DNA of 64,000 nucleotides from Desulfitobacterium dichloroeliminans LMG P-21439 (GTDB taxonomy: Bacteria; Bacillota; Desulfitobacteriia; Desulfitobacteriales; Desulfitobacteriaceae). Numbering within the stretch: position 1 is the stretch's first letter; each line of letters opens with the position of its first letter. The DNA lies in contig NC_019903.1 in the NCBI RefSeq assembly GCF_000243135.2, positions 472,001-536,000 of the forward strand, written 5' to 3'. Below, piece after piece: positions 5,904-59,690 of this stretch. The position numbers and the translations under genes are program-made. The notes below the pieces were generated by a model. It ran no database searches. It worked only from the letters and a program-made list of their open reading frames with translations, and had not been told where the DNA came from.

Positions 5904-5939
5904 AAGCTACTACCAAATAAGGTGGTAGCTTATTCTTTT
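5904..5939 (+). terminator. Stem-loop, probable terminator at IS3 boundary
   Basis: AAGCTACTACC pairs with GGTGGTAGCTT (11 bp, one G-U) around AAATAA, followed by ATTCTTTT. It can end transcription from the unknown gene at 5411-5851, and it lies just inside the presumed outer end of the insertion sequence that follows, so it may also shield the transposase from outside transcription. Confidence 0.65.
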
Positions 5940-7583: not shown

Positions 7584-7750
7584 AAAAAATCCTCCTAAAG
7601 TAGTTTTGGATATTTCCATGGTCTACTTTAGGAGGAGCATATCAAAACACGGGAACGTCATCTTCCTGCCCTTTAAGGGGTGCTCGCTTCCCCAGGGGAG
7701 CCTATAAAGAACGATAAGAAATCAACAAAGATGGCGAATCAAAGATAACC

Positions 7751-29056: not shown

Positions 29057-29070
29057 GGAGGGGATAAATC

Positions 29071-29640
29071 ATGAGTAAGCAATTAGGTTTCTTGCATAAT
29101 TCGGAAAAATGTATCGGTTGCAGAGGCTGTGAAATGGCCTGCAAAAATGAATATCAAAGCGATGCCTCGGTTCGTTGGCGTCAAGTTTATCAGTTACGGG
29201 AAAAGGATTTCTCACTACCCACGCGGATGTTTATCTCGGTAGCCTGCAATCATTGTGAGAACCCGGAATGTTTGCGGGTTTGCCCGGTAAAGGCCTATAC
29301 CAAACGTGAGGATGGTATCGTTATTCATGATCAGGAGCGCTGTATCGGCTGTAAACTCTGTACAATGGCTTGCCCCTATGATCGTCCGCAGTTCAATGCT
29401 GTACTAAAAAAGGTAGAAAAATGCAATCTGTGCTATGAGCGCCTAGATCAAGGACAACAGCCAGCTTGTGTGGCCGCTTGTGTGCCAGAAGCCCTAGAGC
29501 TTGTAGAGGTTAACGAAGAATTAGATCTAAAGGTTGGTGTTCTGAAAACCTTACCTGGAATGCCCAACCCTTCAGTAACGAATCCATCTATACGATTTAT
29601 CGGGCCGAAACAAGGCAGGCAAATAAGGAGGGATGTATAA
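29071..29640 (+). CDS. Four-cluster ferredoxin subunit (DmsB-like)
   Basis: A 189-aa electron-transfer subunit with sixteen cysteines in four groups (CIGCRGCEMAC, CNHCENPECLRVC, CIGCKLCTMAC, CNLCYERLDQGQQPACVAAC), the DmsB/PsrB pattern. It links the molybdenum subunit to the membrane anchor and is exported with it. GGAGGGG precedes the ATG; its stop overlaps the start of the next gene. Confidence 0.93.
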   Translation: MSKQLGFLHNSEKCIGCRGCEMACKNEYQSDASVRWRQVYQLREKDFSLPTRMFISVACNHCENPECLRVCPVKAYTKREDGIVIHDQERCIGCKLCTMACPYDRPQFNAVLKKVEKCNLCYERLDQGQQPACVAACVPEALELVEVNEELDLKVGVLKTLPGMPNPSVTNPSIRFIGPKQGRQIRRDV

Positions 29641-30494
29641 TGGGACAATGGGAATGGCCATTAGTTATTTTTACCGTTCTCGGTCAAACCTCGGTAGGTA
29701 TCATTTTCTGTCTGTGGCTACTGGAAAGAAAACAAAGCAAGCTGGCAACGACGGCCACCACTGAGTATCAGAGCTTTATTAAAAGGTCGGTTCTGGTCTC
29801 CGGTGTACTCCTAGCGGTAGCTATGATCGCCTCCCTCTTCCACTTAGGGCATCCTCTTGAGGCTTATCGGGCCTTAACTCACTTGGGTACCTCTTGGTTA
29901 AGTCGGGAAATTCTCCTCTTCATCTTTACCTTTGGTGCCTGGGCTTACCTAGCACTCCTCTCCCGAAGACCAGGTAGCAAAATGACTGGAATCATGGCTC
30001 TGACTTCAGGCCTAGGCTTCCTCGGGATTATCAGCAGTGCTTTGATCTATACCCTTCCCCGGGTTCCCGCTTGGAACAACTTAGGACCGGTAATCTTCTT
30101 CCTGATGACCAGCGTCATCTTAGGTACACTGTTTACTGTCTTCTTAGGTCGCAAGGTCTTGTCCTCTGGTGAAATAAAGCAACTGCTCAATATCGCCTTA
30201 GGTAGTGTAATCGGCAGTGCTATCCTCTCGCTCCTGTATTTCTCTCTTCTGCAGGTTACACCGGAAGGTGCGGCTACAGCCCAGTACCTCCTAGCAAGCC
30301 CCGTCTTTTGGCTCAGAGCAACAGTTGGCTGGGTAATTCCCATTTTTCTAATCATGAATGCAGTACGCAAAAAGGAAACACCTCAACCCCAAATGATTCT
30401 TTTCGCCCTCACCTGCGGTGTAGCGGGAGAACTCTTGGGGAGAGGACTCTTCTATGTGAGTGCTGTGGGAATGCATATTACAGCTTTGATGTAA
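29640..30494 (+). CDS. Membrane anchor subunit (DmsC-like)
   Basis: A 284-aa protein with eight predicted membrane helices, including the LFHLGHPLEAYRALTHLGTSWLSREILLF segment characteristic of DmsC anchors, which bind quinol. The ATG overlaps the dmsB stop (TAATG), preceded by AAGGAGGG. No haem-binding His pattern beyond the single His in HLGHPLEA is obvious. Confidence 0.9.
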   Translation: MGQWEWPLVIFTVLGQTSVGIIFCLWLLERKQSKLATTATTEYQSFIKRSVLVSGVLLAVAMIASLFHLGHPLEAYRALTHLGTSWLSREILLFIFTFGAWAYLALLSRRPGSKMTGIMALTSGLGFLGIISSALIYTLPRVPAWNNLGPVIFFLMTSVILGTLFTVFLGRKVLSSGEIKQLLNIALGSVIGSAILSLLYFSLLQVTPEGAATAQYLLASPVFWLRATVGWVIPIFLIMNAVRKKETPQPQMILFALTCGVAGELLGRGLFYVSAVGMHITALM

Positions 30495-31855: not shown

Positions 31856-32519
31856 ATGGCGTTTAAACACAAATACTCCTATTCAGAAAAAGAGAAAATT
31901 ATTATTGAATATCTCAATAACACTCATGGTTTTCGGGAAATATGTCGCATATACGGAATGAGCCAAGGAGCGCTTAAAGGTTGGATTCGCTTATACAATG
32001 CCTTTGGATTTGAAGGATTAAGAACAAGCAGCAAGGCACGTCATTATTCATCTGAATTAAAGCAGGCAGCTGTTAATGATTACCTGTCTGGAAAACTTAC
32101 AGCTCCTGAAATACTGAAAAATATAAAATCAGGTCAGAAACACAACTTAGAAGGTGGATAAAAAGTATAATGGTCATGAAGGACTAAAGTCTTCTGGAAC
32201 AGGAGGAAGCGCCATCATGACCAAAGGAAGAAAAACCACTTTTGATGAACGAGTTGAAATCGTGCAGTACTGTATTGCACATGATCATAACTACGCAGAA
32301 ACATCTAAAAAATATCAAGTATCCTATCAGCAGGCACGTAACTTTACCCTTAAATATGAAGCTTACGGAGTTGAATCATTAAGAGACAATCGGGGCAAGA
32401 GAAAGTCTCAGGATAAGATGAGCGAATTAGAAAAGCTGAGAGCTGAGAATAAGATTTTAAGAGCAGAGAAAGAACGAGCTGAAATGGAGGCATCTTTTTT
32501 AAAAAACTCAAGGAGATAG
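31856..32519 (+). pseudogene. IS3 OrfA, broken by single-base losses
   Basis: The frame starts at ATG 31856 (MAFKHKYSYSEKEK, GGGGGGAGC upstream) and stops at 32161; the same protein continues in another frame from about 32125 (RWIKKYNGHEGLKSSGTGGSAIMTKG, then DERVEIVQYCIAHDHNY). Restoring one A in the run at 32117-32121 rejoins the frames. A second A seems missing in the A6 run at 32501-32506: with A7 the frame would continue KKLKEIERRRR and set up the usual -1 shift into OrfB. Two losses in A-runs could be decay or homopolymer sequencing error. Confidence 0.75.
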
Positions 32520-32520
32520 A

Positions 32521-33349
32521 AAGGAGGCGGCGCTAAGCCTGGTTCGCCATGAATTTATATATCAGGCTATAAAAGAAGAAAACCAAGAGCATAGTTATCC
32601 AATCAGCACACTATGTGAGTTCGGCAAGGTATCACGAGCAGCATACTATAAGTGGCTGCATAGAGAAATACCTCAAAACGAAGCAGAAAATCTCCGTATC
32701 GCTGATGAGATTGAAAAAATTCATGAAGAAAGCCCGGATAAAGGATATAGAAGAATCAGGGATGATCTTGAACGATATCATAACATTAAGGCGAATGACA
32801 AGCTTGTTTTGCGCATATGTCGCAAGCTAGATATAAAATCTACCATTAAGTATTCGAACAATGGGTGTACACGTCAGGCGGCCAATCCGCAGTATATAGC
32901 AGAAAACATACTAAATCGAGAATTCACCGCTGAAGCTCCAAATGAAAAGTGGCTTACAGATGTAACAGAAGTCAAGTATTATGTAGGAATGGTAAAGCAC
33001 AAAGTATATCTTAGTGCAATCCTAGATTTATACGATAGACGCATAGTTTCATATATTATACGTGATTCAAATAATAACGCTTTGGTCTTCGATACATTTG
33101 ATGCTGCTATTGGAGCTAACCCGGATGCACATCCAATCTTCCATAGCGACAGGGGATTCCAATACACAAACCGAGTATTTCATGCGAAGATTGAAGCGGC
33201 TGGAATGATCCATAGTATGTCAAGAGTAGCTAAGTGTATTGACAATGGCCCAATGGAAGGTTTTTGGGGGATCATCAAAAGAGAGCGTTATTACGGAAAG
33301 AGATTTACTAGCAGAGAATCTGTAGTTGAAATGATTGAGAAATATATTA
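32521..33349 (+). pseudogene. IS3 OrfB, N-terminal part (C-terminus at 36994-37079)
   Basis: Open from about 32521 (SLVRHEFIYQAIKEENQEHSY) through the integrase core with D (TDVTEVKYY), D (HSDRGFQYTN) and E (EGFWGIIKRER), ending at MIEKYI. The rest of the protein is 3.6 kb away: joining base 33349 to 36994 gives EKYINYYNNKRLQRDLGVLTP in perfect frame. In the present sequence the frame instead runs into the riboswitch region, producing a meaningless 80-residue tail. Confidence 0.88.
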
Positions 33350-33371
33350 TCCCTTATCTTCCCTTCCGTAT

Positions 33372-33402
33372 AAAAATAAAAAGAGCCTTGAGCGGCTCTT
33401 TT
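33372..33402 (-). terminator. Expression-platform terminator of the cobalamin riboswitch
   Basis: AAGAGCC pairs with GGCTCTT (loop TTGAGC on the plus strand); read on minus the stem is followed by TTTTTATTTT. It lies directly downstream of the aptamer, 20 bases from the end of the captured segment. Confidence 0.82.
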
Positions 33403-33423
33403 ACAACACCCATCGCTCGTAGG

Positions 33424-33592
33424 TGTGAATATAACAATTCAAGGCAGGTCTCCTGGCTTCCAGTCATCACGCCCCTTCCCTTCCCGGAATTATCTAGTGG
33501 GTTATTGAGGGGCACTCATGGTTCACAGTGGCGGGACCGCGCCGGATTTTCACCGACTTCCCTTTTCATCCTCAAAGAGGAACCTTGAACTT
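33424..33592 (-). ncRNA. Cobalamin riboswitch (orphaned)
   Basis: Read on the minus strand it has the cobalamin aptamer core: GGTGAAAATCC, then GCGGTCCCGCCACTGTGA, and the B12 box AAGCCAGGAGACCTGCC. It would bind adenosyl- or another cobalamin and repress the gene downstream. No gene follows: the terminator is followed after about 20 bases by the transposon border and then antisense IS3 orfB. It sits just after cbiD on the same strand, so in the donor genome it separated cbiD from the next, lost, gene. Confidence 0.93.
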
Positions 33593-35539: not shown

Positions 35540-36802
35540 TTATACCAGACATTTTTCATACACTCCCTTGTACGGATAGTTTTCCGACAACTTCATGATT
35601 ACATATCTTGCGGTTTTGATTATTTTTGCTGCAAGAAATACATACTTCAAACGAAAGGTCTTTATTTGCTGTCTGTATTCTGAAGAGTCCAAGGAATCAA
35701 ACTTGAACAACAAAAATAGGTTATATGAAAGCATCATCATTTGAAACACGGCTTCATTCGCCCAAAATGACTTTAGCAAGAGATGACCCACCGCCATGTC
35801 GTATTTGGCTTCTTTGATATAGTTTTCAGCATTACCACGCTTTTCATAGTATATAACTACTTTTTCAGAAAGCAAGGTAGTATTTGTTACAAAGAAAAAG
35901 TAGTCGTATTCGGAACCTTCTAAAAGTGATAATTGTGCTCTTTCTTTTTCTGGTTTCAGTACGCGAGATACGACAAATCTTCTGTCTTTTTCCCATTTAA
36001 CTAATTTTGTATACAGTTCTGTAGTTTCTCTACCTTCTTCTCCTTTAACGAATACAATTGATGAATTCGTTGCTTGTGAGGTGAGTGTAGAATAACTTTT
36101 GGCTTTAATTAAATATTTGCATCCAAGAGATTCTATCGTTTCGATAATTTTTTCATCAAAGTAGCCACTATCCATTCGAAATAAAATTTCTAAATCGTCT
36201 GATTTGATGTTAGCAACAATTTCTTTGATCATTTCCGCAGCACCGTTTGCAGTGTAAGTATTGCCACTTCTTACAAATCCGGTAACATATGCTTTTAATT
36301 CGTCGCAAAATGCAAATTGGATATTGTAGCATCGGTTTCCCAGTTTCTTAGGATTATATCCTTTTGACGCACCTTCTTGATGACCTTCTACGTTAATTAC
36401 ACTACTATCAATATCAATCGTAATGGATGTCAATTTACTTTTAGTGAGCAGTTTTTTAAAGACTTTAAAATTAATGTCTCTAAACATTTGGGTTGTCTTG
36501 AAGTTGAAGTTTCCTAGAAACCGTGACACTGTTTCAGGTTCTTTTACGGAAATATCAAACTCGTTGACGAGGGGATCATTTTGAAGTAGCTTTAGACGTT
36601 CTAACTTATCAATGCCAATGAAGTGACCGCAGAGCATGGTCTTTATATGATTCATCTTGATTTTATTTGTTGAGTCATTATCAAATACGAGGTCATTTTC
36701 AATAAAATCAAAAATCCCATTGCTTTTTGCATTCTCAAGGAGCAGAAAAAGACCTGCATTTGATGTTAGATTCTTAGCTTTGAAATCAATTTTATTAATC
36801 AT
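35540..36802 (-). CDS. tnpA: ISEcp1 transposase (IS1380 family DDE)
   Basis: 420 aa, the normal length. N-terminus MINKIDFKAKNLTSNAGLFL; catalytic DDE regions include TSITIDIDSSVINVEG and the second Asp in EILFRMDSGYFD; the C-terminal part has KRGNAENYIKEAKYDMAVGH, where the catalytic Glu is expected. No stop or frameshift, so it should be active. It transposes the IS alone or with flanking DNA by skipping the right repeat. Confidence 0.93.
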   Translation of the reverse strand: MINKIDFKAKNLTSNAGLFLLLENAKSNGIFDFIENDLVFDNDSTNKIKMNHIKTMLCGHFIGIDKLERLKLLQNDPLVNEFDISVKEPETVSRFLGNFNFKTTQMFRDINFKVFKKLLTKSKLTSITIDIDSSVINVEGHQEGASKGYNPKKLGNRCYNIQFAFCDELKAYVTGFVRSGNTYTANGAAEMIKEIVANIKSDDLEILFRMDSGYFDEKIIETIESLGCKYLIKAKSYSTLTSQATNSSIVFVKGEEGRETTELYTKLVKWEKDRRFVVSRVLKPEKERAQLSLLEGSEYDYFFFVTNTTLLSEKVVIYYEKRGNAENYIKEAKYDMAVGHLLLKSFWANEAVFQMMMLSYNLFLLFKFDSLDSSEYRQQIKTFRLKYVFLAAKIIKTARYVIMKLSENYPYKGVYEKCLV

Positions 36803-37624: not shown

Positions 37625-38281
37625 ATGGAGAGTGTAATCAAAACGATTCCGTTTCATTTACAAGCATATCAAATCTTAAGGGAATCCATTTTATCTGGGA
37701 AATTACAACCGGGCGAACGTTTGCGTGAACTTAAGCTTTCACAACAATTAGGGGTGAGTCGCAGTCCGGTTCGGGAAGCAATGCGCATGTTAGAGCAGGA
37801 CGGGCTTGTTGTTAACCTCGATAGTGGCACAGTAGTCAACCCGATGGATATAGACGACATTAAAGAAGTTTACCAATGCCGGATTGCATCCGAAGCCTAT
37901 GCGGGTTTTTTAGCGGTACAGAAGATAAATGATGATGAAATCGCTGAATTGATACACCTTGTGAATGAAGCAGAAATCGCCTATGGGAAAGATGATCCTG
38001 AGCGAGTTGTTGCCTTAAATACGGCCTTTCATGATAAAATCGTTAGCATTAGCGGAAATAGCCGATTGATCGAAATTGTTGAAAAGATTCGTTCGCTAAG
38101 TATCTTATCGAGAAACAGGGAAGTGAAGCTTTATTCACGATCAAGGGAGTATCTTGATGAACATAAAGAGATCATTGATGCCCTTAAGGACAAAGACCCT
38201 TACAAGGTAGAAAAGGTCATTCGAAAACATATTGAAAAGGACTGGGAGTATTATTCACTCCAATATGAGGCCAAACATTAG
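37625..38281 (+). CDS. GntR-family regulator, FadR/FCD subfamily
   Basis: 218 aa. The N-terminal winged helix (AYQILRESILSGKLQPGERLRELKLSQQLGVSRSPVREAMRMLEQDGLV) is followed by an all-helical FCD effector domain with metal-binding His candidates (NTAFHDKIVSISGNSRL, KHIEKDW). Members respond to small carboxylates such as lactate, malonate or sugar acids. It precedes a decayed gene and gatCAB and is 5 kb from the TRAP cluster. ATG after GATGAGGTGAG. Confidence 0.9.
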   Translation: MESVIKTIPFHLQAYQILRESILSGKLQPGERLRELKLSQQLGVSRSPVREAMRMLEQDGLVVNLDSGTVVNPMDIDDIKEVYQCRIASEAYAGFLAVQKINDDEIAELIHLVNEAEIAYGKDDPERVVALNTAFHDKIVSISGNSRLIEIVEKIRSLSILSRNREVKLYSRSREYLDEHKEIIDALKDKDPYKVEKVIRKHIEKDWEYYSLQYEAKH

Positions 38282-38576
38282 CACAATAGAAATTCTAAGC
38301 AAAGTCATTTTATGGAGTAATGGTGGAGAATTATTGATGCTACTTTATTGAAGATAACTATCGAAAATTATATTTTCAAAGCAAAAATGGAGGAACAAAG
38401 AGCTCCCGAAACCTGCTCGGTGTTTCTTAGGTCATTACCTTTTAAAAGTAAATAATCCATGTTAGGTGGAGTGGTGAGGCGACCTCGATCCCATTGGGGG
38501 TCTTAAACTTTGGAGTAGGATACGAGAATCATACAAGTCATCCCTCCAAAGGGAGGTATCGCTTTATCCAGGAGGA

Positions 38577-38749
38577 ATAAGTGAGACTGAAATATTATTA
38601 CCCTATGGAAGTACAAGCTTTTCAAGTAAAGTTGACAACTTGCAGGCAATCACTTCGTGACAATCATTGAAGGGACAGAACTATTGCAAGGTCTTGGACG
38701 AGAAATCCTTTGGGAAGGGGCTAAAGATATTTTAATTGAACTGGCTTAA
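38577..38749 (+). pseudogene. Remnant of a DUF2088 (LarA-like) gene
   Basis: Two short pieces in different frames. Right after AGGAGG, codons from 38580 read SETEILLPYGSTSFSSKV and on to a TGA at 38658; the LPYG pattern resembles the N-terminus of nickel-dependent lactate racemase relatives. From 38660 another frame reads TIIEGTELLQGLGREILWEG to TAA at 38747. They look like the two ends of a gene with its middle deleted. The FCD-type GntR gene upstream would fit a hydroxyacid locus. The rest of 38282-38960 shows nothing clear. Confidence 0.35.
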
Positions 38750-38963
38750 TTTAAAAACGGTTTCGGGGAAATTGGAATAAATTGAATCTTACGTGTGAGT
38801 TATTATAGTGTGTTCCCTCAACTATTCGTTTGTGGGAATTTTTTGTTGGGAGGCTGAAAACTTTTTAAAAGAATAGGAAATAATTGCTTGCAGTCTGGTC
38901 AATATTGAGTGTGAATTTTGCTTGTTCAAGAAGGATTATCAGTAATTTGTTGAAATGTGAATA

Positions 38964-39054: not shown

Positions 39055-39339
39055 ATGAAGATTACTGAAAAGGATATGAAGCGTTTGTCTTTGCAGAGTC
39101 GCCTGGAACTGACTCCTAAGGAAGAAGTCACCTACACTAAGTCTCTTGAGGAAAGCTTAAGCTATATGGATCGCTTGAAAGAACTGGACCTAGGAACCAC
39201 AGAGCCGGCCTCCCTGGTACTCCCTATAATTAACGTGTTTCGAGAAGACGTGCCACAAGCTGGAATGAACAAGGAACTGGTTTTTGCTAATGCCCCAGAG
39301 GAAGAAGAAGGGACTTTTAAAGTACCTCGTATTATCTAG
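39055..39339 (+). CDS. gatC: Glutamyl/aspartyl-tRNA amidotransferase subunit C
   Basis: 94 aa from ATG 39055 (MKITEKDMKRLSLQSRLELTPKEEV). GatC wraps between GatA and GatB and stabilises them. Typical length and pattern (YTKSLEESLSYMDRLKELD, then a C-terminal tail ending FKVPRII). GAGG precedes the start; in-frame codons back to 39007 are not family-like. Confidence 0.9.
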   Translation: MKITEKDMKRLSLQSRLELTPKEEVTYTKSLEESLSYMDRLKELDLGTTEPASLVLPIINVFREDVPQAGMNKELVFANAPEEEEGTFKVPRII

Positions 39340-39353
39340 ACAGGAGGCTTTTC

Positions 39354-40817
39354 ATGGAACTCAATACATTAACAGTTCAGCAACTGAGTGGACTTCTAGA
39401 GAAGAAGGAAGTCAGCAGTCTTGAAATAACCCAGGATTATTTGAACCGAATTAAGAAAATGGACAATGACCTTCAAGCTTTTGTAACGATTACAGAAACG
39501 GAGGCTTTAGATCAGGCTAGGCTAGTGGATGAGAAACGGATGCGGGGGGAAGAACTATCTTCCCTGGCAGGAATACCGATGGCCGCTCAAGACAATATTT
39601 GCACAGGTGGAGTTAAGACGACGTGTGCGTCAAAAATGCTCAATAACTATATTCCTCCTACCGATGCCACTGCGATTGTTCGGTTAAAGAAAGCCGGCTC
39701 TATCTTAATCGGTAAAACCAATATGGATGAGTTTGGTATGGGTTCTTCTACGGAGAATTCAGCCTTCTTTACTACCAAAAATCCTTATAATTATACATCG
39801 GTTCCTGGAGGAGCCGGTGGAGGTTCGGCAGCTGCAGTAGCAGCTGGGGAAACTACTTTTGCCTTAGGTTCAGACATGGGAGGGGATATCCGTCAGCCGG
39901 CGGCATTTTGCGGAGTAATAGGCTTTAAGCCTACTTACGGCTATGTGCCAAGAACCGGTCTGATCTCTACGGCATCCTCGCTTGACCAGATGGGTGCCTT
40001 TTCCCGAGATATGACCGATATGGCTCTGATCCTCAACACGATTTGTGGTCATGATGCCTATGATTCAACATCAGCTTTGGTGGCTGTTCCCGATTTCCAA
40101 AAAAGCCTCATCAATGATGTGAAAGGCTTAAAAATAGGTTTACCCAAGGAGTATTTTGCGGCAGGGGTGGAACCCAAGGTGGCAGCGAAGTTCCAAGAAG
40201 CCATTAAGAAACTAGAGGAATTAGGAGCTAGCTGTATAGAGATTTCTTTACCCCATACCGAATACGCCGTAACGGCTCATTACATCATTTCCTGTGCCGA
40301 AGCTAGCTCTAATCTGGCACGCTATGACGGAGTGCGCTATGGTCAAAGAGTCGATGGGGAAGATGTCCTGAGCATGTTTATGAAGACCCGCAGTCAGGGC
40401 TTTGGTGCCGAAGTGAAAAGAAGAATCTTAACGGGTACCCATGTGTTGAGCACTGGAAAGTATGATGAGTATTACACAGAGGCTCTTAAGGTTCGGACTC
40501 TTAATAAAGAGGATTTTGCGCAAGCTTTTGAAAAAGTGGATTGTCTTTTGACCCCTGCCACCCTTACAACTGCCTATAGAAGTGGTGAAATGGCTGGGGA
40601 TCCCTTGGCCATGTATAGGTCTGATGTTTGTGCAATACCCGCTAGTCTGGCTGGTTTGCCCGCAATGTCTCTGCCTTTTGGATTAGTAGATCAAATGCCC
40701 GTAGGCCTGCAATTGATCGGCAGTCACTTCAACGATAAAACCTTACTGAGGGTTGGGTATGCTTTGGAACAAAATACTGATCAAACTCGTCTGAAACCTA
40801 ATCTAATCCGTGGCTAG
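39354..40817 (+). CDS. gatA: GatA-like subunit with all three amidase catalytic residues replaced
   Basis: 487 aa, full length and colinear with GatA. GatA is normally the glutaminase that supplies ammonia to convert Glu-tRNA(Gln)/Asp-tRNA(Asn). The amidase-signature triad in S. aureus GatA is Lys79, cis-Ser154 and Ser178. Here the matching motifs read GIPMAAQDN (Gln79), VPGGAGGGSAAA (Ala154) and GSDMGGDIRQPA (Asp178). The rest is well conserved (KPTYG, SSLDQMGAFSRD, LAGLPAMSLPFG), there is no frameshift, and codon use is ordinary, so this is a maintained pseudo-amidase. Neighbours gatC and gatB are intact. It may use free ammonia, pair with another amidase, or have a non-tRNA role. Confidence 0.9.
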   Translation: MELNTLTVQQLSGLLEKKEVSSLEITQDYLNRIKKMDNDLQAFVTITETEALDQARLVDEKRMRGEELSSLAGIPMAAQDNICTGGVKTTCASKMLNNYIPPTDATAIVRLKKAGSILIGKTNMDEFGMGSSTENSAFFTTKNPYNYTSVPGGAGGGSAAAVAAGETTFALGSDMGGDIRQPAAFCGVIGFKPTYGYVPRTGLISTASSLDQMGAFSRDMTDMALILNTICGHDAYDSTSALVAVPDFQKSLINDVKGLKIGLPKEYFAAGVEPKVAAKFQEAIKKLEELGASCIEISLPHTEYAVTAHYIISCAEASSNLARYDGVRYGQRVDGEDVLSMFMKTRSQGFGAEVKRRILTGTHVLSTGKYDEYYTEALKVRTLNKEDFAQAFEKVDCLLTPATLTTAYRSGEMAGDPLAMYRSDVCAIPASLAGLPAMSLPFGLVDQMPVGLQLIGSHFNDKTLLRVGYALEQNTDQTRLKPNLIRG

Positions 40818-40887: not shown

Positions 40888-42333
40888 ATGAGTACATATG
40901 AAGCAGTTATTGGTTTAGAGGTTCATGTAGAGTTAAAAACACAGTCCAAGTTATTTTGTGGTTGTTCTACTGAATTTGGCAAAGAGCCCAATACGCAAGT
41001 GTGTCCGGTTTGCCTTGGACTACCTGGTAGTGCAGGGGTTTTAAATAAAAAGGTCGTAGAGTTGGCCACCAAGGCTGGACTGGCTTTAAATTGCGAAATA
41101 GGCACCCATACCTGGTTTGATCGCAAAAACTACTATTATCCCGACTTGCCAAAAGGCTATCAGGTTTCACAGGTCTTCCGGCCCATTGCCTATAAAGGAT
41201 ATTTAGATATTGAGGTTGAGGATCAGCAGATGCGGATTAACATTACTAGGGCTCATATCGAAGAAGATCCTGGTAAGCTAGTTCATTCCGGCGCCTCGAT
41301 TACTACTTCTCATTCTTCTAGTGCGGACTATAACCGTTCAGGAATCCCTCTTGTTGAAATCGTCTCCGAACCAGAAATTCGCTCAGGTGAAGAGGCTAAA
41401 GTTTATCTCGAGAAGCTGAAGGCCATCTTAGAATATACGGGTGTTTCCGATGTGAAGATGGAGCAGGGTTCTCTACGCTGCGATGCCAATGTCTCCATTC
41501 GCCCGGTAGGGACCACCACTCTAGGTACAAAGACAGAGATTAAGAATATGAACTCCTTCCGTGCTGTCCAGCGCGCTATTGAATATGAAGTGGAGAGGCA
41601 GATTGCTGTAGTGCAAGATGGGGAGGCCATCATTCAAGAGACTAGGGGTTGGGATGAGAATAAGGGGATCACCCTATCGATGCGCAATAAGGAAAACCCT
41701 GATTATAGATGCTTCATTGATGCAGAACTTACTCATATCAAGCTGACACCGGAGTGGATCGAAGGGGTAAAAGCTTCCCTTCCGGAATTACCCGATGCTC
41801 GTCAGAAAAGGCTAGTTGAAGAGTACGGGCTGCCGGCTTATGATGCGGCCGTCATTACCAGCTCACTGGATTTGGCTGAGTTTTTTGATGCCACATTGGA
41901 TCAATTTCCAGATGCTAAATTAATCAGCAACTGGATTATGGGGGAGCTCTTACGTCTATTGAATGCCCAAAATCTGGAGCTGAGTGAGGCTAAGGTTACA
42001 CCAGATCGATTAGCTAAACTTCTTGCGCTGATTAAGAAAGGGACCATTAGCAACAAAATCGGCAAAGAGGTTTTTGAGCTGATGTTTAAGGAAGGTAAAG
42101 AGCCGGAGCAAATCGTGGAGGAAAAGGGTCTGGTTCAGATCTCTGACGAGGGACAATTAACTGAGATTCTTACGGAGATTATCGCTAAGAACCCTAAGTC
42201 CGTGGAGGATTTCCAATCCGGTAAGGAACAAGCCATCGGCTTTTTGGTTGGTCAAGTCATGAAGGCCACCAAAGGGCAGGCCAATCCAGGTGCCGTCAAT
42301 GGGATGCTTAGGGAAATGCTAACAAAAAAATAG
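40888..42333 (+). CDS. gatB: Glutamyl/aspartyl-tRNA amidotransferase subunit B
   Basis: 481 aa. GatB is the kinase and tRNA-binding subunit that activates the misacylated amino acid with ATP. Conserved parts are present: [21 protein letters not shown] with VCPVCLG (zinc cysteines), [42 protein letters not shown] and the C-terminal YqeY-like tail ending [15 protein letters not shown]. An insertion-like [17 protein letters not shown] loop is somewhat longer than usual. ATG follows AGGGGGTC. Confidence 0.93.
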
Positions 42334-42929: not shown

Positions 42930-43964
42930 ATGAAAAAAGTAATCGGGTTGATTCTAGCCGTTACCTTAACCTTAACTGGATGCGCTTCAAAAACGAATAG
43001 CGGTGGAGACTCCAGTAACGCAGGGTCAAGTGAAAAACAAATTGTAATGAAAATTGGACATACCCAGATCGAACAGAGCCCACGTCATGCAGTGTCCTTA
43101 AAGTTTAAAGAGTATGTAGAAAAAGAAAGTAATGGCAGAATCGCAGTTCAAATTTATCCAAATTCACAACTAGGTAACTCCAAGGAACAAGTCGAAGGTT
43201 TACAAACAGGGTCAATAGAGATGGTTGTTTTTCCAACCACATCTGTAACGGATTTCCAACCAATCTTTACTTTGCCTGATATTCCTTACCTTTTCCCAAC
43301 TGATCAACAGAAACTATTAGAACTTTATAAAACGGATGAATTCAAAGCATTTATGGCTACAGGTGATGAAAAAGGTTTTAAGGCCTTAGCCACTTTGTTT
43401 GAGGGCTATTCAACCATCTCATCTAAGGATCCAGTAACTGAGGCAGATCAATTAAAAGATATGAAACTTCGAATCATTGGTAGTAACATTGCTAAGACTT
43501 ACTATACAAACTTAGGCGTCCCGCCCAATGTTATTGCATTTTCCGAAGTTTATACTTCATTACAAACGGGTCGAATCAATTCATTAGATATCCCTATCTC
43601 TCAAATGTATGAAAATAAGTTCTATGAAGTCTGTGAAAACATGACAGAGACCAAACATTTTGCGTTGACAAGTTTTATAATGGTTAACAAAAATTGGTAT
43701 GATGCTCTTCCTGAAGATCTCCAAAAAATTATTACTGATGGTGCAGAAGTGGCAGCACCTGCAGCAGCAGGTGTCGTTGACGATACAACTGCAAAAGCTA
43801 GAACTGACATGCCAGGTGTTCAATTCCTTCAACCTTCTGAGGATTTAGTTGAGAAACTTAAAGAGCAAACCAGCAAGATGGAAGAAGAGTACGTGAAAAT
43901 AAATGGTGACAAGGGCAAGCAAATTCTAGATGGTATTAAGCAAGCGATTCAAGGACTAAATTAA
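42930..43964 (+). CDS. dctP: TRAP transporter substrate-binding lipoprotein (DctP type)
   Basis: 344 aa. Lipoprotein signal MKKVIGLILAVTLTLTGC with cysteine 18, Ser/Gly-rich linker, then the DctP fold (MKIGHTQIEQSPRHAVSLKFKEYVEK, AVQIYPNSQLGNSKEQVEGLQTGSIEM, then the specificity segment LKDMKLRIIGSNIAKTYYTNLG). The Arg in LRI is the residue that usually pairs with the carboxylate of the ligand, so an organic acid is expected. Strong AGGAGG before ATG. First gene of a catabolic cluster. Confidence 0.92.
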   Translation: MKKVIGLILAVTLTLTGCASKTNSGGDSSNAGSSEKQIVMKIGHTQIEQSPRHAVSLKFKEYVEKESNGRIAVQIYPNSQLGNSKEQVEGLQTGSIEMVVFPTTSVTDFQPIFTLPDIPYLFPTDQQKLLELYKTDEFKAFMATGDEKGFKALATLFEGYSTISSKDPVTEADQLKDMKLRIIGSNIAKTYYTNLGVPPNVIAFSEVYTSLQTGRINSLDIPISQMYENKFYEVCENMTETKHFALTSFIMVNKNWYDALPEDLQKIITDGAEVAAPAAAGVVDDTTAKARTDMPGVQFLQPSEDLVEKLKEQTSKMEEEYVKINGDKGKQILDGIKQAIQGLN

Positions 43965-43978
43965 TTAAAAATTCTCAT

Positions 43979-44010
43979 AGAGGGTTGGGAGTTCTTCATC
44001 CCAACCCTCT
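43979..44010 (+). terminator. Hairpin between dctP and dctQ
   Basis: A perfect 11-bp stem AGAGGGTTGGG/CCCAACCCTCT with no T-run. Probably lowers readthrough or stabilises dctP mRNA so the binding protein exceeds the membrane subunits. Confidence 0.7.
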
Positions 44011-44034
44011 AAAATTAAGGAAGGAGTGACTACA

Positions 44035-44562
44035 ATGGGTGATACTGCAAAAGACACTTCCAAATATAAAGTCCTTATTACCCTCGATAATCTCCAGACT
44101 AAGATTGAAAAGGGAGTAGTATCCTTAGGTCTCATATTTGCTACATTAATCTTATTTCTAAATATTTTGTATAGCGCTATTGCCGGAACAACAGTGCCTT
44201 GGGCATCCGAGATAACACAATACATTATGGTTTGGGTCATATTTATTGGGGCTAGCCTTCTGATGAGATCCACAGGACATGTAACCATGGATTTAATTGC
44301 GAGATTTATTTCAAAAAAAGTGGTCCTGTATTTGGATGTTTTTATTTACACTATTGTTTGTGTTTTTTTGGCTTATCTATCATATATTGGCTGGAATATG
44401 ACTTTAGATGTGTATATGACTGGACAATCAATGTCCACCATCAACGCATCCATGGCATGGGTTTACCTAGGTTTCCCGGTTGGTGTATTTCTTATGGCTA
44501 TTAATGCGCTAAAGCTTGTCGCTATTAAGTTAAGACAAGCAATGAGGGGGGAAATAACTTGA
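44035..44562 (+). CDS. dctQ: TRAP transporter small membrane subunit (DctQ)
   Basis: 175 aa from ATG 44035 (AAGGAG eight bases upstream; GTG 44026 is within the Shine-Dalgarno region). Four membrane helices; the WASEITQYIMVWVIFIGASLLMR segment is the DctQ hallmark. It overlaps dctM by four bases. Confidence 0.92.
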   Translation: MGDTAKDTSKYKVLITLDNLQTKIEKGVVSLGLIFATLILFLNILYSAIAGTTVPWASEITQYIMVWVIFIGASLLMRSTGHVTMDLIARFISKKVVLYLDVFIYTIVCVFLAYLSYIGWNMTLDVYMTGQSMSTINASMAWVYLGFPVGVFLMAINALKLVAIKLRQAMRGEIT

Positions 44563-45842
44563 CAACAGGTGTTTTTTTAGTAATATTGATGATTGCCTTG
44601 TTATTCATTGGTTTTCCTGTATTTGTAGCGCTGTCTATGCCTGCAACCTTGGCTGTTCTCTTATTTTTATCAGGTGTAGAACCGACCATTGTGGTTCAAA
44701 GGATGATTTCAGGAGTTAACTCCTTTACGTTATTAAGTCTTCCTCTGTTCGTTCTTTTGGCAGATATTATTGCTAGGGGCGTCATGGGCGATAAAATCAT
44801 CAATATGACAAAGGATATGGTAGGCCATTTTAAAGGTGGGATTGCCATAACAGTAGTTCTTGCTTCTCTTGTTTTTGGTGCAATATCAGGGTCGGGAACA
44901 GCATCCATGTTAGCCTTGGGCAGTGTTTTTTTGGTCGCCTTACGGCAAGGAAATTATGATGATATTTTTTCGTATGGACTTATCAGTACTAGCAGTAGTC
45001 TATCTTCATTGATTCCCCCCGGAGTTGCAATGATTTTATATGCTACTATTACTGGAACATCAGTACAGGACGTGTTTTTAGTCGGACTGAGTATGGGTAT
45101 AGTTTTCGGTGTCATCCTTGCTGCTTATGGTGTTTTTTATGCCATTAAAAATAAGATTCCCGTCATTGGTAAATTTAACGCCAGGGCTTGTTTAAAGAGC
45201 TTAAAAGAAGGTTTTTGGACCATTTTGGCACCAGTGCTTATTTTAGGTGGTATTTACGGAGGGTTTGTGACCCCCACTGAAGCTGCTGCTTTGGCCGTCG
45301 TATATGCCTTAGTCATCGAAGTGTTTGTATATCGCTCCTTTAAGCTTAAAGAGATATTTGGAATTGCTATTCAATCTGCTAAGACCAGCACTATGATTTT
45401 GGTTTTAATCTCTGCCGGAACAATTATGTCTTGGGTTATGACCATTGCGCAGATTCCGCAAACCGTTGGGCAGTTGCTCTTAAATGTCCCAGACTCCATG
45501 GTTTTACTCATTATTACCATAGTGTTTATTGTCTTAGGTATGTTTATTGATGGCTTCTCGGCAATGGTCATCATGGTGCCTATCCTCTTCCCCGTTATTC
45601 AAAGAATGGGAATGGATCCATCACTATTTGGCGTGCTGATTGTTTTAAACACTGCCATTGGAACCAATACTCCGCCCTTTGGTATTCACATCTTCGCTGG
45701 AGTGAGCAAATTCAATGTTAGCTATCTTACTATGGTAAGAGCACTTATGCCCTTTGTTATCCTTAGTTTGATAAGCTTGTTGATTTTCACATATATACCA
45801 GGAGTAGCTATGTGGTTGCCAAATCTATTGAAGCTTTTTTAG
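44559..45842 (+). CDS. dctM: TRAP transporter large membrane subunit (DctM)
   Basis: 427 aa with about eleven to twelve membrane segments; sodium-driven importer of the tripartite system. Signatures include FVALSMPATLAVL, FGAISGSGTASMLALGSVF, SSSLSSLIPPGVAMILYATITGTS and NTAIGTNTPPFGIHIFAGVSK. TTG start overlapping dctQ. Confidence 0.94.
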   Translation: MTTGVFLVILMIALLFIGFPVFVALSMPATLAVLLFLSGVEPTIVVQRMISGVNSFTLLSLPLFVLLADIIARGVMGDKIINMTKDMVGHFKGGIAITVVLASLVFGAISGSGTASMLALGSVFLVALRQGNYDDIFSYGLISTSSSLSSLIPPGVAMILYATITGTSVQDVFLVGLSMGIVFGVILAAYGVFYAIKNKIPVIGKFNARACLKSLKEGFWTILAPVLILGGIYGGFVTPTEAAALAVVYALVIEVFVYRSFKLKEIFGIAIQSAKTSTMILVLISAGTIMSWVMTIAQIPQTVGQLLLNVPDSMVLLIITIVFIVLGMFIDGFSAMVIMVPILFPVIQRMGMDPSLFGVLIVLNTAIGTNTPPFGIHIFAGVSKFNVSYLTMVRALMPFVILSLISLLIFTYIPGVAMWLPNLLKLF

Positions 45843-45895
45843 TTGAATTAGTAGGTAAACTCTAGATATCCAGCACCAGGAGAGGAGAGAGCTTT

Positions 45896-47002
45896 ATGAA
45901 AAAATATAACATTGCGGTAATCCCTTTGGATGGAGTCGGTAAAGATGTGATTCCGTTGGGCGCCAAAGCAATGCAACTGGCACAGCAAATTCTTAGTGGC
46001 TTCGAATTGGATTTTCAATATTATGATGCAGGCGTCGAGTATGCAGTCAAAACCGGCAAGATGTGCGAGGAAAACCTAGGGGAAGAAGTTGCTAAGGCAC
46101 ATGCTATGCTCTGTGGTTCATCAGGTCACTATGATGTAGAAATGTCGAAATCTGAATATCCAGGATACAAGACTGGAATGCAAGTCCTTCAATTTTTACG
46201 CAGTGGTATGGGTAACAGTATTGGTTTGCGTCCTTTAAAATTACTAAAAGGCATTGACTGCCCGCTGAAAAATAAAGAAGAGATTGATGTGCTTCTTGTT
46301 CGTCAGCTTGCGGAGGGCTTTTATATTCGACCCGGTCATATGATTGGTGAGGATGCTGCTTATGATACTATCGTGGTCACTCGTAGCACCACAGAAAAAT
46401 TTGCCGATGCTTGTTTTAAGTATGCTCGTGGACGCAATGGCCGTCGTAGTGACGGTAAAAGGATGGTGACCTTGGGAAATAAGCATGGAAATGTTACTTG
46501 TTTCGACTTCTATCGAAAGATTTTCACTGAAATCAGTGCAAATTATCCAGATATTGAATTGCATTTCACGCAAGTGGATGCTTTGGCGGAGCATCTTATT
46601 AAGGACCCGGATCGATTTGATGTCATCGCCTGTGAGAATATGATTGGCGATATTATTGGTGATATCGGAGCCTATATTACTGGCGGCATGGGTATTACTC
46701 CCACGGCAGATGTTGGAGGGGTGACTCCGCAGTTCCGACCGAACCATGGCACATTCCCACGTGCAGTGGGTAAGGGATTTGCTAATCCCTTTGCTAGCAT
46801 CCTTACGGGTAGCCTATTGCTGGATACAATCGGTAATGATTGTGGCGATGACAACTTACGCATGGGTGCCAAACTCATCCAGAAGGCTGTGGAATATAAC
46901 TTAACGACCGGTAGCCCCAAAACGAAAGATTTTGGAGGAAGTGCAAATACTTTCGAGGTGGCTGAAGCAGTATTCAAAGCAATGCAAGTAGTTAAATTTT
47001 AA
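45896..47002 (+). CDS. Isocitrate/isopropylmalate/tartrate-type dehydrogenase
   Basis: A 368-aa beta-decarboxylating dehydrogenase that would oxidise a 2-hydroxyacid with NAD(P). Visible: IAVIPLDGVGKDVIP at the N-terminus, the substrate Arg region (NSIGLRPLK), EDAAYDTIVVTR, the metal-site Asp region FDVIACENMIGDIIGDIGAYITGGMG, and NHGTFPRAVGKGFANPFASIL. Usual EPxHGSAPDIAGK is replaced by RPNHGTFPRAVGKGF, so it is not a standard Icd or LeuB. The location after a TRAP importer suggests a dedicated catabolic substrate such as a malate or tartrate derivative. Confidence 0.85.
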   Translation: MKKYNIAVIPLDGVGKDVIPLGAKAMQLAQQILSGFELDFQYYDAGVEYAVKTGKMCEENLGEEVAKAHAMLCGSSGHYDVEMSKSEYPGYKTGMQVLQFLRSGMGNSIGLRPLKLLKGIDCPLKNKEEIDVLLVRQLAEGFYIRPGHMIGEDAAYDTIVVTRSTTEKFADACFKYARGRNGRRSDGKRMVTLGNKHGNVTCFDFYRKIFTEISANYPDIELHFTQVDALAEHLIKDPDRFDVIACENMIGDIIGDIGAYITGGMGITPTADVGGVTPQFRPNHGTFPRAVGKGFANPFASILTGSLLLDTIGNDCGDDNLRMGAKLIQKAVEYNLTTGSPKTKDFGGSANTFEVAEAVFKAMQVVKF

Positions 47003-47020
47003 GGTAAAGGGGAAATTGAA

Positions 47021-48196
47021 ATGGTTAAAATTGAACATAACGTCCGCTATCAGGGTAGGCCTTCCAAGGTGGAGATGGAACGCCGTTGGAATCTAGCAAA
47101 GGAATTCATGAAAGAGCGCGGATTAGATTACGTTGTTACCCAAGCCAATGAAGGCGTGCTCTGCCAATATGTCCGCTGGTTTGCTGAGGTGCGTTCTCTT
47201 CATTACACTTACCTCCTTTTCGACAAAGACGGGGGTATGACCATGATTAGTCATGGAGGAACAGGTGGCAAAGCTGTACCATGGGAAGTTGGTCTAACCA
47301 ATAACATTGCAATCCCTGTTTTCAATAATGCATGTTACGCCGATTCCTTTGGCGCTCAAAAAGCTGTGGAAGTCATCCAAAAGAAAGGCTGCAAAAAGCT
47401 TGGATTTATTGGAATGAACCTTATCACTGCAGGTTTCTACAATAACCTACTTAAGGGACTTCCAGGAGTTGAGACAGTCGATGTGACTGACGAGTTTGAC
47501 TACCTAGTTGCTGTTAAATCAGAGGAAGAGATGAGCTTCTTGCAGGATGCCTGCGATTTACACGATGCTGCGGCTTATGCTATTCCTTCACTTGTGTACG
47601 CAGGACGCTTAGAGCGGGAGTTCGGTGCCGACCTTCATCGCCTAGCATTATTAATGGGTGCTGACGAATACCTTTCCAACCTTTTCGTTTGTTCGTCACG
47701 TCTTGCAGGACCTATGTATCATATTCATTATCAAAACAAGATTATTCAAGAGGGTGACGCTCTCAACGTATTGTTTGAGGTACCTAATCTTGTCGGATAT
47801 TACGCAGATCTTCATCGTTATTTTAATGTTGGCACACCTGCTCCTGAGATGGTGGAGGTTATGGCAGCTGGAGAAGTACTTCAGGATTATCTGGCAGACC
47901 TTTGCCGACCAGGTGTTAGAGGGAAAGAAGTTTTCGCAGCCTGCAACGAATGGCTTACCAGGCATGGATTTGATCCTGAAATCCGTTTGTGCGGACATGG
48001 TCAAGGTTACGGGCTGGTAGAGCGCCCCTATTTTGATGCCTTTGATGACATGGTGCTCCAAGAAAACATGTATCTTGCTATCCATCCCACAGTAAAGGCT
48101 AAGGGTGCTTCTGTTCAGATTGGTGACAATTTCGTGGTAACTGCCGATGGAGCAAAACGTATGACCAAGCATCCGCGCGGATTAACAATTATTTAA
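47021..48196 (+). CDS. M24-fold protein, creatinase-like, metal site not conserved
   Basis: 391 aa: N-terminal creatinase/prolidase domain, then a pita-bread domain. Classical metallo-members have D-D-H-E-E; here the first pair reads NVLFEVPNLVGYYADLHRYF (first Asp replaced), GHGQGYG keeps the His, and the two Glu positions appear as AIHPTV and QIGDNF. So at least three ligands are lost. Metal-free creatinase, which hydrolyses a guanidino C-N bond, is the precedent for such a change. In this cluster it probably cleaves a C-N bond of the imported compound or an intermediate. Start ATG 18 bases after the dehydrogenase stop. Confidence 0.82.
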   Translation: MVKIEHNVRYQGRPSKVEMERRWNLAKEFMKERGLDYVVTQANEGVLCQYVRWFAEVRSLHYTYLLFDKDGGMTMISHGGTGGKAVPWEVGLTNNIAIPVFNNACYADSFGAQKAVEVIQKKGCKKLGFIGMNLITAGFYNNLLKGLPGVETVDVTDEFDYLVAVKSEEEMSFLQDACDLHDAAAYAIPSLVYAGRLEREFGADLHRLALLMGADEYLSNLFVCSSRLAGPMYHIHYQNKIIQEGDALNVLFEVPNLVGYYADLHRYFNVGTPAPEMVEVMAAGEVLQDYLADLCRPGVRGKEVFAACNEWLTRHGFDPEIRLCGHGQGYGLVERPYFDAFDDMVLQENMYLAIHPTVKAKGASVQIGDNFVVTADGAKRMTKHPRGLTII

Positions 48197-48210
48197 GAAT
48201 GAAGTTCTAC

Positions 48211-48242
48211 AGCTCCACCTATTACATCTAGTAGGTGGAGCG
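48211..48242 (+). terminator. Stem-loop after the M24 gene
   Basis: AGCTCCACCTA pairs with TAGGTGGAGC around TTACATCTAG; no T-run. The gap 48197-48474 shows no gene. Confidence 0.5.
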
Positions 48243-48474
48243 AAATAACCCAGGATATCTTGATACGTTAAACATGGAAGGTTTACCACTGTAAGAATTT
48301 CGGGTTCAGAAAGGTAAACATATCCCTTAGTAAACGTTTGCTTTGCTGTGCCTAAAAATTCTCGGAAACTCCTAGAATTAGGACTCTATGTGAATTCTAC
48401 GTGGCCTAGTTTATTTAACTTTTTAAAGAACTCAGATGTAAAGATATGATAATAATTTATAGGGAGTGTAACTT

Positions 48475-49809
48475 ATGTACGACCTTCAGATCGTCAACGC
48501 AAAAATTGTAACTGAACAAGGTAAGATTGATGGCTGTATAACGATTAACAACGGAAAAATTGAGGCAATAAGCTCTACGCCTCTCGTCAACGCAAAGGAA
48601 ACGATTGATGCTAAAGGACTTTTCGTTTTACCGGGATTTATTGATCAACACGTTCATTTTATGGATCTAGGGGAAAGCGAGCGTGAAGATTACATCCATG
48701 GTACTACCGCGGCTGCTATGGCTGGAGTGACAACGGTAATTGAGCATACTCATAGTCGCCCAATCCTTAAAGTTGAAGATTTCTCGAAGTATAAGGAATA
48801 TTTTGAGCAAAGGGCTTTAGTCGATTTTGGCTTCGCAGCACATATATGGCCAGGTCAGTATGAGGAGTTAGAAAAGCTCTGGCAGGAAGGAGTATCTTAT
48901 TTTAAGATGTTTACCTGCACCACACATGGTGTTCCTGGGCAAGATAATGCGAGCATCTATGGTGCTTTTTCAAAAGTTGCTTCTTTTGGTGGGAGCGTCT
49001 TAGTTCATTGTGAAGATGAAGCATTAACTGCAGAAAACGAAAAAATTCTTAAGGAAAACAATCGTGAAGATGGTCATGTGATTCAAGAATGGCGCTCCAA
49101 AGATGCTGAAGCTGTTTCGGTAGCCAATGTATGTTTTATTGCCAAAGAAACGGGAGCCCGTGTAACAATTGCCCATTTGAGTCATCCAGATGTAGTTCGT
49201 ACAGTTCTGCAAGCAAAGGCAAGTGGCGCTAATGTTCTCTCAGAGATTTGCCCACAGTATTTATACCTCGAGGAAAATACTCTTGCAGAGAGGGGATCCT
49301 TTGGGAAGTTTACGCCACCGTCACGTTCAGCCCAAGAATCTGAGGAATTAATGGAACTGGTTGGTAATGGCGATCTCGATATTCTGGCTTCGGATCATGC
49401 TCCTTCAACAAAACAGCATAAAACTTCAGGATCAATATGGAAAACACCATTCGGACTACCGGGTATCGATACCACGAGTTCAGTAATGCTAACAGCGGTT
49501 AATAAAGGTAAACTTTCCTTAGAAAGATTTGTGCAAATGTATTCTGAGAATCCAGCGAAGGCTCTCGGTTTATACCCGAAAAAAGGATGTATTCGCGTGG
49601 GAGCAGATGCGGACCTAGTCTTAGTTGATATGGAAAGACAGTGGACTATTCAAGAGGATTCAATCCAGTCTAAAGCTAAATGGACGCCGTTCGAAGGTTT
49701 TGAATGCATCGGCAAGGCTGTCATGACGTTGTTAAGAGGTCAAGTCATTATGTCCGAGGGTCAATTACTAGGAAAACCTGGGGACGGAAAATACGTGAAG
49801 CGTGCTTAA
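48475..49809 (+). CDS. Cyclic amidohydrolase (allantoinase/hydantoinase-like)
   Basis: 444 aa, a TIM-barrel metalloamidohydrolase. Binuclear site residues visible: HVH in GFIDQHVHFMD, the carboxylated Lys in VSYFKMFTCT, His in VLVHCEDE, His in IAHLSH and Asp in LASDHAPS. It would open a ring amide such as allantoin, hydantoin or dihydropyrimidine. It is closest in pattern to allantoinase/dihydroorotase group members but no pyr genes are near. Shine-Dalgarno AGGGAG. Confidence 0.88.
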   Translation: MYDLQIVNAKIVTEQGKIDGCITINNGKIEAISSTPLVNAKETIDAKGLFVLPGFIDQHVHFMDLGESEREDYIHGTTAAAMAGVTTVIEHTHSRPILKVEDFSKYKEYFEQRALVDFGFAAHIWPGQYEELEKLWQEGVSYFKMFTCTTHGVPGQDNASIYGAFSKVASFGGSVLVHCEDEALTAENEKILKENNREDGHVIQEWRSKDAEAVSVANVCFIAKETGARVTIAHLSHPDVVRTVLQAKASGANVLSEICPQYLYLEENTLAERGSFGKFTPPSRSAQESEELMELVGNGDLDILASDHAPSTKQHKTSGSIWKTPFGLPGIDTTSSVMLTAVNKGKLSLERFVQMYSENPAKALGLYPKKGCIRVGADADLVLVDMERQWTIQEDSIQSKAKWTPFEGFECIGKAVMTLLRGQVIMSEGQLLGKPGDGKYVKRA

Positions 49810-49829
49810 AATATTCAAGTAGACATAAC

Positions 49830-49868
49830 ACTTCAAACCACGTCCCATAGCGGTAGGTGGTTTGAAGT
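49830..49868 (+). terminator. Hairpin between amidohydrolase and dehydrogenase genes
   Basis: ACTTCAAACCAC with GTGGTTTGAAGT, perfect 12-bp stem, 15-base loop, weak T content afterwards. Possible partial terminator within the cluster. Confidence 0.6.
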
Positions 49869-49893
49869 ATTATCTATAAGGAGGATGAAAAGC

Positions 49894-50847
49894 ATGACTA
49901 AAAAAATAACAGTAATTGGATCTGGATTCACCGGTACTACAACCGCGTTTATGCTCGCCATGAAAGGGTTAGGAGATATCGTTTTACTGGATACGCCGTC
50001 AAAAGAGAATCCGACGAAGGGGAAAGCTCTGGACATAATGGAGGCTAGCCCTTTGATCCATTCTAGTGTTCAGATAACAGGTACTTCGAATTATAAAAGT
50101 ACAGCCGATTCGGATGTTGTTATTATTACTGCCGGCATTGCACGTAAGCCAGGTATGTCTCGTGACGAACTATGCGATATTAACGCTGAGATTATCACAA
50201 ATGTAGTTCATCAGGTTGTACGTTATTCACCGGATTGCACTCTTATCATTCTAAGTAATCCAGTTGATATAATGACATACATTGCTCTAAAAGCGTCACG
50301 TTTTACTCGGAATCGGGTTATCGGTCAATCCGGTGTACTTGATACAGCACGATTTCGGTACTTTGTAGCGGATGAGCTTAAAGTGTCTTCCGAAGATGTG
50401 ACAGGATTTGTTCTAGGGGTTCATGGCGATGACATGGTACCACTTGTACGCTATTGTTCTGTCCATGGAATACCAATTCAGCAATTGCTTAGTGAGGAAA
50501 AAATTAAAAAAATCATCGAACGAACTCGTCATGCCGGTGCGGAAATTGTGAATTTGTTAGGCGATGGAAGTGCATATTATGCGCCTGCTGCTGCTTTAAC
50601 AGCAATAGTAGAGTCGATTTTGTTGGATCAGCATCGTGTAATGCCTTGTGTGGTACACTTAGAAGGAGAACTAGGGTATAAAGATTTGGTACTAAGTGTT
50701 CCTGCTGTTATCGGAAAAAATGGAGTTGAAAAAATATTATCCATTGAGCTACTGCCTGACGAAAGGGAACTAATAGATCGATCTGTTGCATCAGTGAGAT
50801 GTGGAATTAATTCTATTTTAGAGCGCAAAATTCAGTTGATTAGTTAA
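49894..50847 (+). CDS. mdh: Malate dehydrogenase (LDH-like type)
   Basis: 317 aa from ATG 49894, eight bases after AAGGAGG (the ATG at 49885 abuts the site). Rossmann motif [10 protein letters not shown] with Asp ([18 protein letters not shown]), substrate Arg in [11 protein letters not shown], and the catalytic His/Asp pair in [10 protein letters not shown], which is the malate-type rather than lactate-type loop. It oxidises a 2-hydroxyacid with NAD+. Its role here may be an analogue of malate from the catabolic pathway rather than the TCA cycle. Confidence 0.88.
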
Positions 50848-50900
50848 GACCATATCAAAGTAAAGTAAATAAAATATTTATAAAGTGAGGGTGGGTTAGT

Positions 50901-52487: not shown

Positions 52488-52490
52488 AAC

Positions 52491-52536
52491 AAGAACTGCC
52501 TTCACAATGTAAACATTGGATGTGAAGGCAGTTCTT
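52491..52536. terminator. Bidirectional terminator
   Basis: A perfect 16-bp stem AAGAACTGCCTTCACA with its complement, between the converging nitrilase and PucR genes. Confidence 0.85.
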
Positions 52537-52556
52537 AGTCTCACTCAAAAAAGTAA

Positions 52557-54236: not shown

Positions 54237-54395
54237 ATACATCCTCCTAGAATGTAAAACACTGATAAAATAATTGTTTTTAGTGGAATATAATTGATTA
54301 TAGCCCAAATTGTGAATTAAGTATATAAATTGAATTCTTTGTTTGTTATGAGATCACACTATTATTAGAAATATTATACTGAACCCTATGGCTAG

Positions 54396-59662: not shown

Positions 59663-59690
59663 TTACCGCATTGAGATGAGGAGGGGAGAT

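Follow-up and report, generated by a model that had tools for sequence, protein, structure and literature searches.

In a 64,000-nucleotide stretch of the Desulfitobacterium dichloroeliminans LMG P-21439 genome (NC_019903.1, 472,001–536,000; hereafter the window, in whose own numbering all coordinates are given), we find a gatC-gatA-gatB operon of full-length subunits representing a GatCAB paralogue that is almost certainly both glutaminase-dead and conserved. GatCAB is the textbook glutamine-channelling enzyme; here GatA lacks its catalytic triad and GatB has been rewritten at two conserved motifs, and dead GatA and remodelled GatB occur together in 20 genomes from several groups of Bacillota.

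The gatA gene (39354–40817, forward strand) is an intact open reading frame of 487 amino acids that scores 574.9 bits against TIGR00132 (cut-off 481). Its product aligns with Staphylococcus aureus GatA (2df4_A) gap-free up to residue 178, placing Gln79 (CAA, 39588–39590) at the catalytic Lys79, Ala154 at the cis-Ser154 and Asp178 (GAT, 39885–39887) at the nucleophile Ser178, exactly the replacements that a preliminary description of the DNA had reported; the neighbouring Ser155 is likewise replaced, by Gly (codons 154–155, 39813–39818, with codon 154, GCC, at 39813–39815). Within the glutamine pocket R357 and D424 are retained and Tyr309 has become H309, S. aureus Arg358 and Asp425 being taken as equivalents of yeast R334 and D418; D424 aligns with Asp425, and yeast Asp418 binds the glutamine amide (PMC4027206). 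Sequencing error as the source of the triad changes is ruled out by independent genomes with dead GatA: Q79 and D178 are also present in two genomes of the same genus (G003 and G004), and A154 and D178 in a Desulfotomaculaceae metagenome-assembled genome (MAG; L041/G465).

The genomes surveyed are a sample, several of them draft MAGs in which the absence of a gene near a locus edge is weak evidence. Within it, the paralogue occurs in 7 of 83 genomes of the window's class (its own genome counted), in 12 of 113 from the class to which the Desulfotomaculaceae MAG belongs (G465 counted) and in one further carrier, G352, from a phylum sample of 398; when G352's class was searched in turn, G472 emerged with a solo remodelled gatB. 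All 20 dead GatA proteins form a single clade in the GatA tree (support 100/100), as do the 20 remodelled GatB proteins together with that of G472 in the GatB tree (100/100).

At least one triad residue is gone from all 20 GatA proteins of the clade, and the K/S/S triad is complete in 68 of 68 canonical ones. Position 79 holds Q, N, S, G, A, D, T or I (K being retained in G050 and G352), position 154 holds A, I, R, P or the original S, and position 178 D, G, F, A or the original S; the change at 178 may have run from Ser through Gly to Asp by single-base steps, Gly being observed in G050, G352 and G521. Canonical GatA has 123 invariant columns, and those altered most often in the clade are Y309 (19/20), K79 (18/20) and D424 (18/20), followed by Y363 (14/20), S178 and A128 (13/20 each); six active-site columns show a mean of 11.2 losses in 20 sequences versus 1.9 in 20 over the 123 (permutation p = 1e-5), the counts referring to sequences, not independent events. 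The Q/A/D set was rejected as a marker of the clade, whose members are missing between one and three triad residues and carry a wide variety of replacements; the pattern GGDIRQPA gave three matches over the genome contigs, one of them GatA, and a wider DNA pattern lacked specificity.

These varied losses imply that the glutaminase became dispensable, and not that the letters Q, A and D were selected as such. The preliminary description had argued for selection of a pseudo-amidase and raised the prospect of a clade sharing Q/A/D. A conserved, full-length pseudo-amidase is borne out: the frame is intact, the protein belongs to one clade, and the ratio of nonsynonymous to synonymous substitution rates (dN/dS) between same-genus pairs is 0.12–0.22 for clade GatA versus 0.05–0.09 for canonical GatA, values unlike those of a pseudogene; selection of the three letters themselves, and a clade-wide Q/A/D, do not hold. 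Because the remaining protein is constrained, clade GatA is, as far as substitution patterns tell, a scaffold around a dead site and not a decaying gene.

The same description called the flanking GatB normal, a view that the alignments overturn, since two of its motifs are altered clade-wide. The gatB gene (40888–42333, forward strand; 481 amino acids) retains the ATP/Mg2+ site and the tRNA-binding tail, but the canonical PGxLP is PGSAG in the window (residues 46–50, 41023–41037) and PGxxG in all clade GatB, with LP at residues 49–50 replaced by A, T, S or V followed by G in 21 of 21 remodelled proteins. The canonical DYRYF-P-[ED]-P-D has become DYRCFIDAE (residues 272–280, 41701–41727), with one residue deleted immediately before; DYRYFP is DYR[C/S]F[I/L/M] throughout the clade, the changes over residues 275–280 being Y to C or S, P to I, L or M, and D to E (19/20). 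Elsewhere, residue 128 is Pro in EEDPGK (A128P; 41269–41271), a position held by Ala in 39 of 40 canonical GatB. Canonical PGxLP and DYRYFP are found in the Bacillota sample, S. aureus, T. maritima and A. aeolicus; Cys at 275 appears in one canonical GatB, outside the 40-sequence alignment.

Much else in GatB is untouched. Of 110 columns invariant in the 40 canonical sequences, 94 are unchanged in all 21 remodelled proteins, and E11, H13, E125, E157, S160, N201 and S203, the counterparts of the yeast GatB residues assigned to ATP and Mg2+ binding (PMC4027206), are retained in 21 of 21. The helical and YqeY tail domains are present in the window GatB (Pfam GatB_Yqey, 2.1e-57), whose tail is 69% identical to that of its own genome's canonical GatB. 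In the GatB tree the clade has a long stem (0.27–0.38 changes per site) and short internal branches; same-genus dN/dS is 0.04–0.10, similar to canonical GatB. Cross-class identity is 82% for remodelled versus 65% for canonical GatB, both being 88% within the genus, a pattern suggestive of horizontal spread or of unusual constraint on the remodelled form.

At most clade loci the order is gatC-gatA-gatB. The window gatC (39055–39339, forward strand; 94 amino acids from ATG; TIGR00135 above cut-off) retains the Arg/Asp (FRED) contacting GatB; at some loci gatC was missed by the open-reading-frame filter and recovered with tblastn, and at the G352 locus, which holds gatA-gatB only, it was not found even so. 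In G472 the remodelled gatB has neither gatC nor gatA nearby, and the genome's only close GatA is canonical. Because of these two cases GatB is, on gene content, the constant element of the paralogue.

Two further genomes, G485 and then G484, branch just outside the remodelled clade in the GatB tree. The ligA-linked gatCAB of G485 (L106, G485:C1:14218-17111) combines remodelled GatB with a GatA whose triad is intact, a possible intermediate; its position differs between the GatA and GatB trees, a hint of gatB exchange. In G484, the ligA-linked GatA (L147, G484:C87:2655-3809) has a damaged GGSSGG motif and has lost C-terminal residues; it stands beside a half-remodelled GatB, with an intact GatA elsewhere in the genome.

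The D. dichloroeliminans genome, a single contig of 3.62 Mb, encodes a second gatCAB with a perfect K/S/S triad directly after a ligA-like gene, as well as GluRS, GlnRS, AspRS and AsnRS; both a second gatCAB and glnS/asnS had been proposed as things to look for, and both are there. With GlnRS and AsnRS encoded, Gln and Asn can be charged directly, which makes the window operon a spare copy. Canonical GatCAB accompanies the paralogue in nearly all carrier genomes; in one draft genome, G600, canonical GatA was not found.

We favour, at a probability of roughly 0.45, a neofunctionalised, GatB-centred tRNA amidotransferase that would work independently of glutamine, on free ammonia or another small amine, with GatA as a scaffold. 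Remodelled GatB would bind ATP and Mg2+ and, through its helical and tail domains, tRNA; with its ATP/Mg2+ ligands conserved and its tRNA-binding domains present, it would probably form an activated phosphate at the side-chain carboxyl of Glu or Asp bound to tRNA, as canonical GatB does. GatA, predicted to be unable to hydrolyse glutamine, would be retained as a scaffold and perhaps as an open channel for ammonia; free ammonia would then be the simplest amide donor, with another small amine as a possibility. We infer both the ammonia dependence and the acceptor, tRNA-bound Glu or Asp; the former draws support from yeast mitochondrial GatFAB, which transamidates with NH4Cl once its glutaminase is bypassed (PMC4027206). 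Three points weigh against this explanation. Ammonia use alone leaves the rewritten universal GatB motifs unexplained, a hint that the acceptor, the tRNA or the nucleophile has changed; the remodelled GatB with intact triad in G485 means that GatB remodelling may have preceded glutaminase loss and may be unrelated to the ammonia source; and AlphaFold2 models from two-row alignments reached predicted local distance difference test (pLDDT) scores of 29.5 and 42.5, too low to place the altered GatB motifs.

That the paralogue carries out a different reaction, and not ordinary Gln-tRNA or Asn-tRNA formation, is a genuine if doubtful possibility: the universal GatB motifs are altered in all members, and with GlnRS, AsnRS and canonical GatCAB present a second maker of these tRNAs looks redundant, yet the conserved ATP/Mg2+ residues and tail leave tRNA the likeliest substrate, and the loci share no neighbouring enzyme that would supply an unusual amine or consume the product. 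We consider it rather unlikely that remodelled GatB joins an amine other than ammonia to tRNA-bound Glu or Asp, or otherwise modifies it, on a GatA scaffold, which would make the paralogue a new tRNA-dependent modification in several Bacillota groups. A non-catalytic binder, acting as decoy or regulator of canonical GatCAB or as chaperone for misacylated tRNA, would fit the presence of canonical GatCAB in nearly all carriers and the retained tail and GatC interface residues; we judge it unlikely, as ATP/Mg2+ ligands fully conserved in 21 proteins are unexpected for a non-enzyme. Quite unlikely, too, is a glutaminase supplied in trans, by canonical GatA swapping onto remodelled GatB or by another glutaminase docking: G472, with its solo gatB and only canonical GatA, and G485, with remodelled GatB paired with intact GatA, speak for it, but nearly all clade operons retain their own gatC and dead gatA beside gatB (G352 lacking gatC), and there is no linkage to any other glutaminase. 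Across the clade loci there is no widely shared neighbour or partner gene, and so none in support of the regulator of a second GatCAB or the partner glutaminase entertained in the preliminary description.

The operon lies in a catabolic setting. Upstream is a GntR/FCD regulator of the surrounding cluster (37625–38281, forward strand; Pfam FCD and GntR), given here as context without implying that it controls gatCAB. Between it and gatC a decayed, frameshifted DUF3830 gene (38348–38750, forward strand) was recognized by three-frame translation, its read-through pieces matching DUF3830 at E 6.9e-22; this remnant suggests that gatCAB lies within a disturbed catabolic cluster. Downstream (42930–54308) follow a TRAP transporter, tartrate/isocitrate dehydrogenase-like, M24 peptidase, hydantoinase-like and malate dehydrogenase-like genes, a protein with two CN_hydrolase stretches and a PucR regulator. 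It is highly improbable that the operon belongs to this cluster and acts in its pathway, with the TRAP transporter and the hydantoinase-like and nitrilase-like enzymes: it does sit between the GntR regulator and the TRAP genes, and a DctP gene adjoins gatC in G060 and G062, but there DctP is upstream of gatC (in the window, downstream of gatB) and seems, by eye, to belong to a different subfamily, and the neighbours are unrelated in G003, G004, G050, G352, G465 and the Desulfotomaculia loci. As neighbours are not conserved, the cluster does not explain the operon. A duplicated gatCAB in slow decay is scarcely credible, for although clade GatA has about twice the dN/dS of canonical GatA, frames are open in 20 genomes with dN/dS far below 1, GatB is constrained like canonical GatB and its clade-specific motifs are conserved.

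A search for riboswitches, T-boxes or tRNAs near the operons gave nothing above the gathering score (one T-box lies by aro genes), and a promoter and terminator scan stayed near chance level. An inverted repeat, TATAGCG...CGCTATA, lies upstream of gatC in the sister species G003 (L037/L038) and G004 (L035/L036) and more weakly in the window, a possible operator. Judged from translations, the window also holds two sets of molybdopterin oxidoreductase genes, of the dimethyl sulfoxide reductase type (26858–30494 and 57608–60248), and several transposase-like genes, one or more of which are fragmented (5938–7619, 32154–33588, 35540–36802 and 55663–57003).

The NCBIfam gatA, gatB and gatC models all match the window subunits above cut-off; automatic annotation would therefore name an ordinary GatA, and the paralogue is probably misannotated in public records. 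Among titles and abstracts of openly licensed literature on GatCAB paralogues or Desulfitobacterium GatCAB, we found no report of a dead GatA. Paralogue operons labelled, as they probably are, as ordinary Gat would distort predictions of Gln-tRNA and Asn-tRNA synthesis in these anaerobes, and a recurrent GatCAB without glutaminase, with GatB surviving without partners, raises the question of free-ammonia use in the cell versus another reaction.

Compared with canonical GatCAB (structures 2df4, 3h0l and 3al0), the window operon has the same gene order, full-length subunits, GatB ATP/Mg2+ residues, tail domain and GatC–GatB contacts; by contrast, no clade GatA has a complete glutaminase triad, most of the residues of the glutamine pocket are gone in the clade, its GatB has PGxLP and DYRYFP rewritten, and the window operon lies away from ligA and coexists with canonical GatCAB. 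Yeast GatFAB shares the GatA/GatB architecture of the paralogue but differs in having GatF in place of GatC as third subunit and a complete GatA triad (S154/S130/K52; PMC4027206). Another related system is the gatCAB of G329, a 1.7 Mb genome whose dead GatA (L134, G329:C51:12582-14021) is the only close GatA found: like the clade it has lost the site (K79S, cis-Ser to Ala, S155C, pocket residues lost), but unlike the clade it is ligA-linked and retains canonical GatB motifs, and its triad loss is a separate one outside the clade.
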